Below, piece after piece: positions 47,680-52,808 of a stretch of 52,808 bases of DNA (position 1 is its first letter; each line of letters opens with the position of its first letter). The notes under the pieces were generated by a model. The model was not told the origin of the DNA. It made no database searches and saw only the letters and a list, made by a program, of their open reading frames with translations. The DNA lies in contig CAJOLW010000015.1 in the NCBI GenBank assembly GCA_905235525.1, positions 1 through 52,808 on the forward strand. The letters are read 5' to 3'. The translations under genes and the position numbers were made by a program. This stretch comes from an uncultured Bacteroidaceae bacterium. Its GTDB lineage: Bacteria > Bacteroidota > Bacteroidia > Bacteroidales > Bacteroidaceae.

Positions 47680-47990
47680 AGTACTGCCAAACCGTCGTAA
47701 ACGACGCTTGCCACAAGACAAGAATCCCTGAGTGCAGGGTGGCGGCACGAACATTCGGAACAAAAAATTACAGCATTAATGTTGTTGGTAATATCTGGGA
47801 ACCTAGGAAATTCTGAAGATATTATACTGTTATACGACGAGTTAATGCCTATGCGATAGCGTAGGCACAACTTATCAGACAGTATAGGCTATTCCTAGGG
47901 CCTCCAGATATGGGTAAGTTAGCGTGTCCTACGCTATTCCCATCTCTGGAGGTCTTGCATAGGGGCAGCCTATAAACATGCCGATGACGA
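47680..47990 (+). ncRNA. Bacteroidales-1 type RNA (6S RNA homologue)
   Basis: A good promoter, a place directly after rplT and about 300 bases without a gene match the Bacteroidales-1 RNA motif, described as a promoter-started RNA often downstream of L20 and later proposed as the 6S RNA of this group. Helices visible: GTCGT/ACGAC (47694-47705), CCCT/AGGG (47726-47739), ATATCT/AGATAT (47791-47822), TATACTGT/ACAGTATA (47823-47886) around the hairpin GCCTATGC/GCGTAGGC, and TATAGGCT/AGCCTATA (47883-47974) around the long arm CCTCCAGA/TCTGGAGG. The last two helices share TATA, so they compete. The 3' end is unsure because no U run follows. 6S RNA binds RNA polymerase and tunes it to growth phase. 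Confidence 0.65.
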
Positions 47991-48017
47991 GTGTGCTGCC
48001 TAAATCTATCGTATTCT

Positions 48018-51000
48018 ATGCTTATAGACAACAAGGTGGATCGCTATCCCGAAGACGGGCTTGGCATTAAGACCGTATGGGACTTTATCAATCTGTATTC
48101 AGGTCTGCAATCAGGACAGAAAGGTTCGCTCGATATTGTAACGGGCTACTTCACCATTCGTGCCCTCAGCAAACTCTATCGGGAACTGCCAGAAGAGGAT
48201 GAGTTTCGTATTGTTTCTTCAGAGATGGTGCGTGAAGAGAAACAAATGGAGGACATCAAGGATTTGCTGAACGGTGACTTCACCATCGATACGACCCTCC
48301 AACTGGACGAGTATGCTAAGGAAGCCAAAGCCTTCTTGGAGCGTAACTCTGTACAGATACGTGCCATTGCCAATGCCTTCTGCCATGCCAAGGTCTATAC
48401 TTTCAGAAACAACATCGCCCAAAACAATGGCTACTATCTCACAGGAAGTAGTAATCTGACCGATGCAGGTTTGGGATTGAAGCCAACATCGAATGTGGAA
48501 TTGACCATCGGTGATTCTGTCAACAAAGCGAACTCGGACTACAAGGAAGTGTGTCGTTGGTTTGAAGATATCTGGAAGACAGCAAAGGAAAACATACAAG
48601 ACCCAGACAATCCAAAGGCAGAAACAATCAGCGTGAAGAACTACTTCATCCGTATGATAGAAGAGTATTTCCGCAAATATACGCCAGAAGAAATCTACTA
48701 CAAGATACTCTATGAGATATTCAGGGCAGACTTCGACTTTGAGGACTTGTCCATAGAACATCGGCAGGATATGTCGCTGTTGCAGACAAGCGAGATATGG
48801 CGCACATTGTTTAACTATCAGCAAAAAGGTGTTATTTCTCTCATCAAGATGCTCCGAAAGTATAATGGTGCCATCCTTGCTGATGCCGTAGGCTTGGGAA
48901 AGACGTTTTCCGCTTTAGCCGTTATCAAGTTCTTCCAGATACAAGGCTACACCACCCTCCTGCTTTGTCCCAAAAAGTTGCAACAAAACTGGACGCAATA
49001 TCTGAAAGGAGCAGGCTCTCGATTTGACAATGACCGTTTTGATTATCAAGTGCGCTTTCATACAGACTTGCAGAACGAACGCCTTCAGAACAATTATGAC
49101 ACCTACAAACTCGACTATCTGCAACGGCGTGAGAAATTGCTGATTGTAATAGACGAGAGCCACAACCTACGCAACGAAAAGTCAAGCCGTTATCATGATC
49201 TGTTAGATAACCTTATCAAGGCACAAAGCCGTACAGAAGGACACCAACTGAAAGTCTTGATGCTTTCTGCCACACCTATCAATACGGGACTGAAAGATGT
49301 GAAAGGACAGTTCAACCTGATAGCACGTGGAGAAGATGAAGCCTTTGACTCTGATGATTTTGGGGTAGAGTCGCTTAAAAGTTTGTTTGCCGACTCACAA
49401 CGCAAATATACAGAATGGTGTACAGACCCCAACCGAACGATTGGCAGTTTTATAGCCAAACTCTCACCCAAGTTCTTCAATCTAACAGACAAGTTGATTG
49501 TGGCACGCACACGCAAACTCATCGAAAAGACACTGGGTGAGGACATGGGATTCCCAGACAAGCAGAAGCCTCTTAATATCTATAAAGGTGTGGATCACTT
49601 TGGCAAGTACCAAACGACAGATGAAATCTACAAGGCTTTTGAGGAACTGACACTGACTGCCTATCAGCCGAGTCTTTACATTCCAGAGTCGCAACAGAAA
49701 GCCAAGAAAGGAGCACGGAAAGATTGGAACGACAATGTGAACCGTGAACGTTTCCTTGTCAAGATGATGAGTATCCTCTTCATGAAACGCCTTGAGAGTT
49801 CATGGCACTCTTGTATGTTGACCGTGAAGAAAGTGCTCGACGTGCATGAAGAGACCTTGCAGAAAGTGCAGGACTTCGAGCAATTCAAAAAGAACGGGGA
49901 AATAGACATTGATGTGCCAGATGAAGATGAGAACTTCGACACCGACGACCTCTTTACCTTGCGCAAGGGCACCATCAGCCTCAGCGAGATGAAGAATCTG
50001 GGTGGATTCAAGCGTGGATTGCAGCACAATGTGAAATGTCTGAATGAGATATACCTGAGTTTGAAGACCTTTGAAGAGAACTATCGAAAGGGTTTGGAGC
50101 AAGATGAGAAACTGAACGAACTCGAAATGCTGCTCAGAGAGAAGTTGAAGAGTTCCAACAAGAAAATTGTCATCTTCACGGCATACAGCGACACGGCAAA
50201 ATTTCTGTATGACGAACTACAGCAGCGAGGCTTTTCTCATATTGCTGCCGTTTCAGGTTCTGCCATCTACACTTCTGGGCAACAACGCACGAACGACTTT
50301 CAAGAAATCTTGCAGAGTTTCGCCCCGTATAGCAAACTCTACAAGGAAAAGGATTGGAATACACTTTATGATGAGGCTCACCTTGACACAGAGAAATACT
50401 ATGATGCGGAAAAACGCCAATGGCGAGTGCCCTATTCCATCTGGGAGCAGTTGATCAAAGCGAAAGAACCTGCTGTCGCCAGATTGCTGGATGACCACAT
50501 TGACATCTTGATTGCCTCCGATTGTCTATCTGAAGGTCAGAACCTGCAAGATGCCGACATGCAGGTGAACTACGACATCCATTGGAACCCCGTTCGCTTG
50601 ATACAACGATTCGGACGTATTGACCGTATTGGCTCTCCCAACCAACTGATTCAATGTGTCAACTTCTGGCCAGCCAAGTCGTTTGAAGAGTATCTGAATT
50701 TAGAGTCACGCATCATGAACCGCATGGTCATCATGAACTTGACTGGTGCTGAAACACAGCAACTGAACGACGAATACATGCAGATGGAGAAAGATAATCC
50801 ACTCATTGACAAGAATGCAGACCGCTTGCTGGCAGAATTGCAGACCAACAGCATTAGCGACATCGAATCTCCTCAGACGCTTTCACTGAAAGATTTTTCA
50901 CTCGAAGTATATCGTCAAGACTTGCTCGACTACTTTGAGCAATACAAACAACAACTGGAACGTATGCCTAATGGCATCTTCACAGGTTTCCGCAACGAAG

Positions 51001-51431
51001 ACCCCATTTTCGGGAAAATACCTGAAAGCCTGGTGGCTGTTGTCGGCTATCCTAAACGAGAACATGGAAGTACTGAGCGTTATCGTGAAATCTACCTGAT
51101 GTGCCAACCTGCCGACAAGTCACAAGTTCCCGCCTTCACAGAAATGAACCGTGCGGAAATACTCGACTTCCTCCGCAAGAACAAGCGTGGGGAACGATAT
51201 GTGCCAGATTGGATAGAGAAGCCACAAAGCGAACGGTTGGCAAAACTTTCGGCCATCGTGCAGCAATGGATGGAAGATAAGGTACCTCAACAAGCCACTA
51301 ATGCCATCCTGCAGATTGCCCAGTCACGCAAGGGAATAAACCTCGGCGACAAAAAGAAAGGTGTCAGATTGGAAGATAAGTTCAAGAAAGAAAACTTTGA
51401 CCTTATAGCATGGATGTATGCAAGCAAGTAA
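48018..51431 (+). CDS. PLD-like nuclease/SNF2-type helicase of a defence locus
   Basis: This 1,137-residue protein starts with a phospholipase D-like part (HAK at 123-125, GSSN at 143-146), then a superfamily 2 helicase: Walker A DAVGLGKT at 289-296, DESH at 379-382, SATP from 418, and the second lobe with IFTAYSDTAKFLYDEL (about 716) and QRFGRIDRIG (863-872). Such proteins occur in restriction-like and phage-defence loci beside DNA methyltransferases, as here. The ATG at 48018 is preferred to a GTG at 47991. The gene begins right after the structured RNA with no terminator or clear promoter in between. Confidence 0.85.
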   Translation: MLIDNKVDRYPEDGLGIKTVWDFINLYSGLQSGQKGSLDIVTGYFTIRALSKLYRELPEEDEFRIVSSEMVREEKQMEDIKDLLNGDFTIDTTLQLDEYAKEAKAFLERNSVQIRAIANAFCHAKVYTFRNNIAQNNGYYLTGSSNLTDAGLGLKPTSNVELTIGDSVNKANSDYKEVCRWFEDIWKTAKENIQDPDNPKAETISVKNYFIRMIEEYFRKYTPEEIYYKILYEIFRADFDFEDLSIEHRQDMSLLQTSEIWRTLFNYQQKGVISLIKMLRKYNGAILADAVGLGKTFSALAVIKFFQIQGYTTLLLCPKKLQQNWTQYLKGAGSRFDNDRFDYQVRFHTDLQNERLQNNYDTYKLDYLQRREKLLIVIDESHNLRNEKSSRYHDLLDNLIKAQSRTEGHQLKVLMLSATPINTGLKDVKGQFNLIARGEDEAFDSDDFGVESLKSLFADSQRKYTEWCTDPNRTIGSFIAKLSPKFFNLTDKLIVARTRKLIEKTLGEDMGFPDKQKPLNIYKGVDHFGKYQTTDEIYKAFEELTLTAYQPSLYIPESQQKAKKGARKDWNDNVNRERFLVKMMSILFMKRLESSWHSCMLTVKKVLDVHEETLQKVQDFEQFKKNGEIDIDVPDEDENFDTDDLFTLRKGTISLSEMKNLGGFKRGLQHNVKCLNEIYLSLKTFEENYRKGLEQDEKLNELEMLLREKLKSSNKKIVIFTAYSDTAKFLYDELQQRGFSHIAAVSGSAIYTSGQQRTNDFQEILQSFAPYSKLYKEKDWNTLYDEAHLDTEKYYDAEKRQWRVPYSIWEQLIKAKEPAVARLLDDHIDILIASDCLSEGQNLQDADMQVNYDIHWNPVRLIQRFGRIDRIGSPNQLIQCVNFWPAKSFEEYLNLESRIMNRMVIMNLTGAETQQLNDEYMQMEKDNPLIDKNADRLLAELQTNSISDIESPQTLSLKDFSLEVYRQDLLDYFEQYKQQLERMPNGIFTGFRNEDPIFGKIPESLVAVVGYPKREHGSTERYREIYLMCQPADKSQVPAFTEMNRAEILDFLRKNKRGERYVPDWIEKPQSERLAKLSAIVQQWMEDKVPQQATNAILQIAQSRKGINLGDKKKGVRLEDKFKKENFDLIAWMYASK

Positions 51432-51458
51432 GTAACTAACCACAAAATCGATAAAAAC

Positions 51459-52808
51459 ATGAAAGAAATACTGAGACAATTCATTGACAAACCGCTGTTT
51501 GATGCGTGTGCATCACTGCTTCATCATCTACATATCACCTTCAATGAAGTGACACGCACCCCTATTCCCTTTGAGGGGCTGTATCGCTATCCTTTAACCA
51601 AAACCCTAAAGGAAATTCTGCCCAAAGTGGAGAGCACCTATTTCATTGGAACGATTGATGAATCCTCTTTGTCTGGTCATGCCACCCACAAAAATGAACG
51701 TGAAGTGACCGCTAAAGCCTTGGAGGGCAAGTATGTGGGCATGATGGTCTTTGCTGTGGAATTTCGCGAGCATGAGACGCTGACAAGGACAGAGATGGCG
51801 ACACTGACTCGTGGGTTCAATCGCATTGCTTCCGCTCAACCAGTGGTGTTGCTGATGAAGCAAGGTGTACAACTGGCATTGGCAACCTGTGAACGTGGAG
51901 ACTATCAACAATTGTGGCGAGATGGTGAGAAACTGGGCAAAGTGAGCATGCTCCGTGGCATCAACTGCCAACTACCTCACAGAGGGCATATTGACATATT
52001 GGAATCAATAGGAGACAAAGCCTATCCTACCTTCGAAGAACTCTACAAGCATTGGATACAGGTGTTTAACTCTGAGTTACTTACCAAAAAGTTTTATGGC
52101 GAACTCAGTGACTGGTATGCGTGGGCGGTACAAGTTGTGCGTTTTCCGAACGACCTTACGACCGATACGGATGACGACAAATTTAACCACGAGAGTTGCA
52201 TCCGTCTTATCACCCGTCTCATCTTCGTGTGGTTCCTCAAACAGAAGCACCTTATTCCTGAAGAGTTCTTCGACGAGCGGTACATTAAAGACCACTTCAT
52301 CGATGAGTTTAATCCCCACGACCGCAGGAACTTACTTTATAACTCGGAGGAAAGCAAGTACTATCGGCTTATCTTGCAGAACCTCTTCTTTGCGATGCTC
52401 AACTGCCCCATCGTTGCAGAGGGTAAGGAAACGCCGAACAATCGCCGTTTCCGTGGCGTTTTCCAAAAAGGCTATTTACGCGATGGTTATAACGTGAACA
52501 ACCAGATGCGCTATAAGGCAGACTTCAAGGAAGGTGGCGCAGACGAGTTCGTGCAGATGGCAAACAGTCATGTACCGTTCCTCAATGGCGGCTTGTTCGA
52601 CTGTTTGGACAAGAAGCCTGAGAAACTCTATTACGACGGATTCTCTGAAAGAAAGGAGTCGCTTGAACAACTCTATCTTCCTGACTGGCTTTTCTTTGGT
52701 GATGAGGTGGGACGTAGCATAGACCTTTCACAGTGGTATGGTGACAACAACAAGAAAAGCGTATCGGCACGAGGCATTATCGACATCTTGAAACGGTATA
52801 ACTTCACC
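51459..52808 (+). CDS. Large Eco57I-type DNA methyltransferase, N-terminal 450 residues
   Basis: The frame runs from the ATG at 51459 and is open at the window end. No methylase catalytic motif is reached yet, but FLNGGLFDCLD (about 369-379) and ILKRYNFT at the edge are the phrases that precede the SAM-binding core in Eco57I/type IIG and PglX-like methyltransferases; the family usually runs beyond 1,000 residues. The N-terminal part (EGKYVGMMVFAVEFREHE, KVSMLRGINCQLPHRGHID) is probably a DNA-recognition or nuclease module that I cannot name. It follows the helicase by 27 bases. The partners suggest BREX-like, type IIG-like or another modification-based defence. Confidence 0.75.
   Translation, partial: MKEILRQFIDKPLFDACASLLHHLHITFNEVTRTPIPFEGLYRYPLTKTLKEILPKVESTYFIGTIDESSLSGHATHKNEREVTAKALEGKYVGMMVFAVEFREHETLTRTEMATLTRGFNRIASAQPVVLLMKQGVQLALATCERGDYQQLWRDGEKLGKVSMLRGINCQLPHRGHIDILESIGDKAYPTFEELYKHWIQVFNSELLTKKFYGELSDWYAWAVQVVRFPNDLTTDTDDDKFNHESCIRLITRLIFVWFLKQKHLIPEEFFDERYIKDHFIDEFNPHDRRNLLYNSEESKYYRLILQNLFFAMLNCPIVAEGKETPNNRRFRGVFQKGYLRDGYNVNNQMRYKADFKEGGADEFVQMANSHVPFLNGGLFDCLDKKPEKLYYDGFSERKESLEQLYLPDWLFFGDEVGRSIDLSQWYGDNNKKSVSARGIIDILKRYNFT

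Follow-up and report, generated by a model that had tools for sequence, protein, structure and literature searches.

The locus raised the question whether a gene pair at the very end of a Bacteroidaceae contig, coding for a PLD-helicase and a large methyltransferase, was the start of a defence system with further partners beyond, as the original prediction proposed, or a system in its own right. The window (the whole stretch of DNA analysed, 52,808 nt) ended with its contig at position 52808 (G000:C15), and the methyltransferase gene was thereby cut. The operon lay on the forward strand and displayed three parts: (i) a structured 5′ leader RNA at 47768–48017 (model core at 47798–47911), recognised by its fold, shared leaders, and covariation; (ii) an HKD (PLD) nuclease domain fused to a SNF2-type SF2 motor, 1,137 aa, at 48018–51431; and (iii), 27 bases further on, the first 450 residues of a DUF4391-like module plus Eco57I-type N6-adenine methyltransferase at 51459–52808, whose catalytic part and target recognition domain (TRD) were seen in relatives only. 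The genes upstream of the helicase gene were presumably thrS, infC, and those for L35 and L20. The comparisons below make it probable that the two genes together form an ATP-dependent restriction-modification (R-M) system, which would act in the manner of a Type I/ISP enzyme split over two chains.

The helicase had the position and domains originally predicted: Pfam detected PLDc_2 (residues 37–186), SNF2 (267–437), and Helicase_C (816–872), and the start codon ATG at 48018 agreed with relatives, MLIDNK being placed there in nine of 15 aligned rows (window included). The nuclease active-site motif was intact, with H123-x-K125 and G143-S-S-N146 invariant across the 15 rows, and so were the motor motifs (Walker A K295, D379-E380, motif VI Q863-R864, R867, and R870). 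Searched by sequence against solved structures, the helicase matched helicases and SNF2 ATPases; its best PADLOC model was that of an existing broad category, C3a139 'HKD+Snf2' (E 3.3e-77).

The window held 450 of about 1,160 methyltransferase codons, and the closest relative was 83% identical over these 450 residues. Pfam found nothing in the residues present, and the predicted Eco57I type therefore rested on relatives, where it stood: Eco57I was detected in all seven translated relative methyltransferases (1127–1305 aa) and TaqI_C in six of the seven (P0007 and P0008 being methyltransferases with another N-terminal module, and P0008 holding some undetermined residues). The half missing from the window contained, in relatives, DPACGSGAF, NPPY, and a TaqI-like recognition domain. 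The full-length AlphaFold model was poor (pLDDT 53), residues 1–200 giving ten-residue blocks of 60–91 and one of 39; the 50 matches listed in its fold search were all methyltransferases, e.g., CamA, BrxX/PglX, M.BseCI, and M.TaqI, while the sequence search of solved structures gave none. On the other contigs of the genome, nothing of the rest of the gene was found except a 36-residue C-terminal piece at C5:263–373, flanked by fragments of other genes; this tail was dropped as a continuation because the sequence before it was not methyltransferase. The stretch G000:C5:1–400 thus carried the short tail of a related methyltransferase amid gene fragments (L045), perhaps the scar of a past rearrangement.

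Matches to P0002 were found in 13 of 101 genomes (its own counted), and the 14 loci in named contigs were all titled Bacteroidia or below (Prevotella, Alloprevotella, Bacteroidales, and similar), two of them with rumen in the title. In loci with the module fused to the methyltransferase (hereafter fused loci), the helicase gene came first and the methyltransferase gene second, with a gene of 275–369 aa between them in L023, L024, and L053; the distant locus L128 had the reverse gene order. The two genes were the constant core of these loci, and the genes after them differed, including 189–190 aa proteins (membrane-like by eye), an S-AdoMet lyase match, and others, with YhcG/DUF1016 nucleases making up three of 76 flank proteins. 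The pair thus recurred in other genomes, and the idea of a mere start with partners beyond was not supported. Two side observations concerned the flanks: a gene after the pair in L037 (13574–14617) and L039 (13406–14464) matched Pfam S-AdoMet lyase (best E 3.9e-12) and adjoined a methyltransferase system, and a tyrosine integrase gene (Pfam, L030 copy) lay upstream of the pair at L030:4893–6089, a sign of mobility, with homologues at L031:4943–6205 (87% identical) and L038:2675–3589 (85%). L030 and L038 shared 95% identity in the helicase, 92% in the module, and 93% in the methyltransferase core, but only 22% in the recognition domain; L030/L031 and L031/L038 displayed a like pattern. A recognition domain exchanged in this way is the pattern expected of sequence-specific restriction systems that switch target, and the defence role first suggested was well supported in the form of restriction-modification. 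The methyltransferase profile gave no confirmed relative in viral contigs, a weak search, since five fused methyltransferases surfaced there via helicase loci instead.

The N-terminal module of the methyltransferase (residues 1–200, 51459–52058), left without a name in the original prediction, is homologous to DUF4391 by profile comparison: HHalign of nine window-clade modules (the window's own not among them) with 42 free DUF4391 proteins gave 92.4% (E 5.1e-7, score 50.5), the second clade gave 89.8%, and both clades together gave 89.4%, while the controls (four sets of 13, each one reversed plus 12 shuffled) scored at most 17.1 and stayed below 1%; only 45.9% had been obtained before from a different DUF4391 alignment. 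Pfam DUF4391 (PF14335) did not match the window module; it reached 26.7 bits, against a cut-off of 29.9, in P0005, a homologue belonging to a different family in the same order, and passed with 32.0 bits in one fused methyltransferase of 1288 codons in the phylum sample, the helicase of which lay upstream with one 358-aa gene between. A profile of 56 free DUF4391 proteins, searched against the locus ORFs, gave seven outside hits (E 1.1e-5 to 0.032), all large methyltransferases matched within residues 98–230 and none from the window's clade. The free DUF4391 of L063 was modelled by AlphaFold2 at pLDDT 94.5 (model m0a5e1f21f1a5), and Foldseek against PDB returned nothing below E 0.07; by eye, it shared with the methyltransferase module the order helix, strand, helix, strand, helix, three strands, and helix, the latter having one extra helix (80–88). 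A second kind of N-terminal module (L021 type) was likewise paired with a PLD helicase, with HHalign values of 1.2% against DUF4391 and 51% against the window-type set. Phage records gave no match to the N-terminal module. The spacer that followed (residues 206–450, 52074–52808) had the ancestry of the methyltransferase body.

The same module was also found as a separate gene. Among 71 helicase loci with room downstream (from 78 viral-collection loci plus L179, eight of which stopped at the helicase), DUF4391 was adjacent in 61, a fused methyltransferase was present in five, DUF4391 lay 2.3–3.8 kb off in two, and neither was found in three (L062, L115, and L116). L126, L127, L129, and most of L046–L123 were type III-like operons, in which a PLD-fold helicase lacking the HKD motif was accompanied by DUF4391, Mod, and often Res.

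Pairwise identities were compared across 21 loci, a set that excluded the window (its methyltransferase being cut) and also L018–L020, L028, L033, L035, L036, L042, L043, and L046, among others. Helicase identity correlated with module identity at r = 0.967 and with methyltransferase-core identity at r = 0.590; the partial correlations were 0.950 and 0.101 (0 of 2000 permutations), with jackknife ranges of 0.94–0.96 and –0.03–0.20, and the values within 17 fused loci were 0.913 and 0.195. Ancestry broke near residue 200 of the methyltransferase in L041 and L021: L041 had a window-type module (75% identical to that of L030) followed by a spacer closer to L025 (59%) than to L030 (46%) and a core about equally close to both (55 and 53%), while L021 and L030 were 65% identical in spacer plus core, 16% in the module, and 24% in the helicase. 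Since module identity tracked helicase identity and not methyltransferase identity, the module is probably the docking part. Linkage could mimic docking, the module being the part of the methyltransferase gene nearest the helicase gene: simple crossing-over near residue 200 would likewise transfer all that lies upstream as one block, and the module, co-inherited with the helicase as a DNA neighbour only, might then be, e.g., DNA- or modification-sensing and not an adaptor. This explanation deserves real weight but is rather unlikely, as the helicase–module correlation showed no decay along the helicase (0.936–0.965) and, where the methyltransferase was of a different class, a homologous DUF4391 encoded by its own gene still adjoined the helicase.

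The docking reading was joined by a second regularity, in the nuclease domain. The HKD motif (scored as HxK and then GSxN within 45 residues; near copies counted) occurred in all 23 helicases with a fused module, in all seven of a further group, and in none of 70 type III-linked helicases, one of which (L091_2497) was probably a Res subunit. Within the further group, an Eco57I-type methyltransferase adjoined the helicase in L021, L025, L125, and L130, an annotated TaqI-C-type methyltransferase lay near the L128 helicase, and L115 and L116 made up the remainder. A helicase tree of 63 rows, which took in a random 34 of the 67 type III-linked helicases and omitted four near copies and all rows shorter than 1000 aa, needed three partner changes, and its type III-linked rows except L091_2497 made up one clade beside one of two fused clades; the loss of the motif thus counts as one event, not 70. 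A prediction set in advance was applied to 28 loci, a subset of the phylum-sample DUF4391 hits (eight already obtained but unexamined when it was set and 20 obtained later; L179 gave no row). The motif was present in nine of nine scorable fused loci, the tenth (L186) having no helicase N-terminus on its contig; at the free-DUF4391 loci, the helicase lay upstream in 17 of 17 and the motif was found in none, L200 being cut and L192 perhaps lacking its N-terminus. The helicase was split into two frames in L188 and L189. The predicted immediate adjacency was wrong in two of ten fused loci (L176 and L178, with an intervening gene of 356–358 aa) and in three of 17 free loci (L194, L195, and L198, with one of 125–129 aa), and Mod came next after DUF4391 in 15 of the 17, the other two loci ending there.

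The cut methyltransferase gene also means that the window copy may be broken, i.e., a truncated gene left beside a useless helicase. Broken relatives are known: L020 and L042 (one contig) had split methyltransferase frames and a shortened helicase, L035 and L043 had split methyltransferase frames, and L036 had a fragmentary helicase with a long methyltransferase frame. Decay is nonetheless improbable for the window, where the helicase frame was complete with its motifs and the methyltransferase frame was open up to the contig end.

The preferred reading, a working two-gene system, was then set against known systems. Type ISP enzymes (LlaGI and LlaBIII) have corresponding parts, namely nuclease, SF2 translocase, coupler, gamma-methyltransferase, and C-terminal TRD, but, as far as the available text of the sources goes, in one chain with an Mrr nuclease (PMC3874165 and PMC4666363). 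The window system was encoded by two genes, had an HKD nuclease, and began its pre-methyltransferase stretch with the DUF4391-like module; the SF2 motor and nuclease motifs were present in the window itself, and the N6-methyltransferase plus TRD in relatives, while the single polypeptide with an Mrr-like nuclease that defines Type ISP was absent. CglI likewise restricts DNA in an ATP-dependent way by means of a PLD nuclease that cooperates with an SF2 helicase, but, in the text available, the two are on separate chains, the PLD chain bearing a B3 DNA-binding domain (PMC5737866). In the window, PLD and motor were fused, and the site would presumably be read by the methyltransferase. NgoAVII is reportedly grouped with CglI, going by the title of a reference. 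The type III operons (from plasmids, viral contigs, and Bacteroidota genomes) shared the DUF4391 module, and their helicase clade lay beside one fused clade, but they had DUF4391 as a separate gene, a type III Mod as methyltransferase, and in many cases Res, and had lost the HKD motif; the window system had no Mod plus Res, its relatives carrying an Eco57I-type methyltransferase instead.

The original statement that the pair followed no standard type I, DISARM, or BREX order was right over the range covered, and no complete known R-M or BREX operon including the pair was found downstream. The sole PglZ match in the genome lay on contig C28, not C15; the 520-aa form of PglZ is, we assume, PorX of Bacteroidota. 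DrmA, DrmB, and DrmC were not among the 25 commonest PADLOC families (83 further families being matched besides these) for the 76 proteins flanking the pair in 12 relatives, the DISARM check being confined to those 25. DISARM and BREX names arose from NCBIfam models far below their cut-offs and PADLOC models covering parts only. CxC-ABC/Pbe systems have an HKD fused to an SF2 helicase, with a DNA methylase in some (PMC10853773); no CxC ABC ATPase–DndE pair like theirs was noticed at the window locus. A BREX-related Type-2 system centred on DUF499 comprises a DUF499 ATPase, an N6-methyltransferase, an HKD-Snf2 helicase, and DUF3780 in the accessible part of PMC12839542. That the window held a remnant or minor form of it, its remaining genes having been lost or lying past the contig end, is very improbable: the two enzyme classes are the same, down to the N-terminal HKD on a Swi2/Snf2 helicase, but DUF499 was absent from the window locus and from 11 of 12 genomes searched (the window's included), the single hit lay on another contig than that genome's pair, and DUF4391 goes unmentioned in PMC12839542.

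As a split Type I/ISP-like enzyme, the system would work as follows: the methyltransferase would locate its site via the C-terminal recognition domain and methylate adenine there, the N-terminal DUF4391-like module holding the helicase; at an unmethylated site, the SNF2 motor would be released and move along DNA, and the HKD domain would cut. Docking, translocation, cutting, site-dependence, and the anti-phage role are all read here from sequence. The literature searched, mostly without subscription papers, described neither this pair together with DUF4391 nor a leader of this kind, and DUF4391 appeared in one table only, on an unrelated topic.

The leader in front of the pair was characterised by fold, model, and covariation. 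Window positions 47770–48017 folded at –99 kcal/mol (z –6.78, 0 of 200 shuffles), and the same leader preceded the helicase gene in L032, L033, L034, L036, and L041, with z of –5.73 in L032 and –7.55 in L034; the L030 leader had z –5.43 yet no match to the RNA model, and that of L039 (z +1.31) was not structured. A MAFFT alignment of the six leaders had both sides changed in 14 of 58 predicted pairs. Among 37 locus sources, the RNA model fell below E 0.01 in the six training loci only, so most pairs of the window's kind had no such leader. In a model-fitted alignment of 26 copies, (i) 96.0% of cells were paired against 84.5% when shuffled and 31–48% in slid controls; (ii) 60 cells were changed on both sides against 14.4, helix 1 having seven of eight pairs so changed; and (iii) further pair types numbered 29 against 27.0, with 68 of 500 shuffles as high. 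Rfam 15 returned nothing relevant (the hits were miRNA models under their cut-offs, one tRNA, and a plastid model overlapping it), and the leader is, on this covariation, an RNA absent from Rfam.

Model R1, built from the six leaders, matched 31 of 61 genomes and had four copies in the window's own, and the idea of an RNA specific to this system was dropped. Besides the window's, 82 copies were listed, and 60 (L219–L278) were examined by E-value down to 1e-4; those left out were seven of G076, one of G072, and the 14 weakest, and omitting the rest of G076 favours the R-M count, since its two examined copies (L253 and L254) did not precede R-M genes. The downstream gene, taken as the nearest ORF of 100 aa or more within 600 nt, was found for 55 copies and missing for five. 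R-M genes lay downstream of 47 of the 60 copies (47 of the 55 with an ORF), near relatives and same-genome copies being counted separately; the ORFs were not R-M for eight (L230, L231, L253, L269, L270, L273, L274, and L276). These calls relied on Pfam totals, clusters (19, 10, 6, 6, 4, 1, and 1), and motifs, some cluster members being called by homology alone, and Pfam detected MmeI_Mtase in 20, Eco57I in 14, N6_Mtase in 13, HsdM_N in ten, EcoRI_methylase in six, and SNF2 in six of the 55 genes. By copy E-value, R-M genes followed 16 of 19 copies below 1e-9, 23 of 26 up to 1e-6, and eight of 15 above, and no upstream gene (0 of 46) matched these R-M proteins. The R-M kinds so preceded were type I hsdM, PLD-helicase systems, a type III-linked helicase, and EcoRI-like, MmeI-like, and N6_N4-type methylases.

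Model R2 matched 19 of 395 genomes in the phylum sample (the window's own included). Of 21 copies outside the window's genome, 20 (L279–L298) were examined, with an ORF ahead in 19; blastp against the R-M set linked none of the 20 to R-M, a search that could miss other R-M kinds, and a phylum-wide R-M link was dropped. Three of these copies lay inside an ORF frame, and seven were followed after 68–87 nt by a gene, judged by eye to encode in most cases a secreted or lipoprotein-like product. The RNA element may therefore be older than its restriction link, or the weak hits may be another RNA. That the leader is an undescribed cis-acting structured RNA class, placed by this genus before unrelated R-M operons and giving them common control, is put forward tentatively, at slightly under even chances; it would act on expression, for instance by setting its timing or level once the operon has reached a new host or when a ligand is present. 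We know of no precedent for plug-in RNA control of restriction as such.

DUF4391 thus receives a testable job, that of joining a PLD-SNF2 motor to methyltransferases of two classes. The helicases form a natural series, with the HKD motif kept beside a fused module and lost in a sister clade with Res, in which the passing of the cutting job between subunits can be followed. If the shared leader RNA is regulatory, control of restriction level on entry into new hosts, a long-standing question, would become directly testable.
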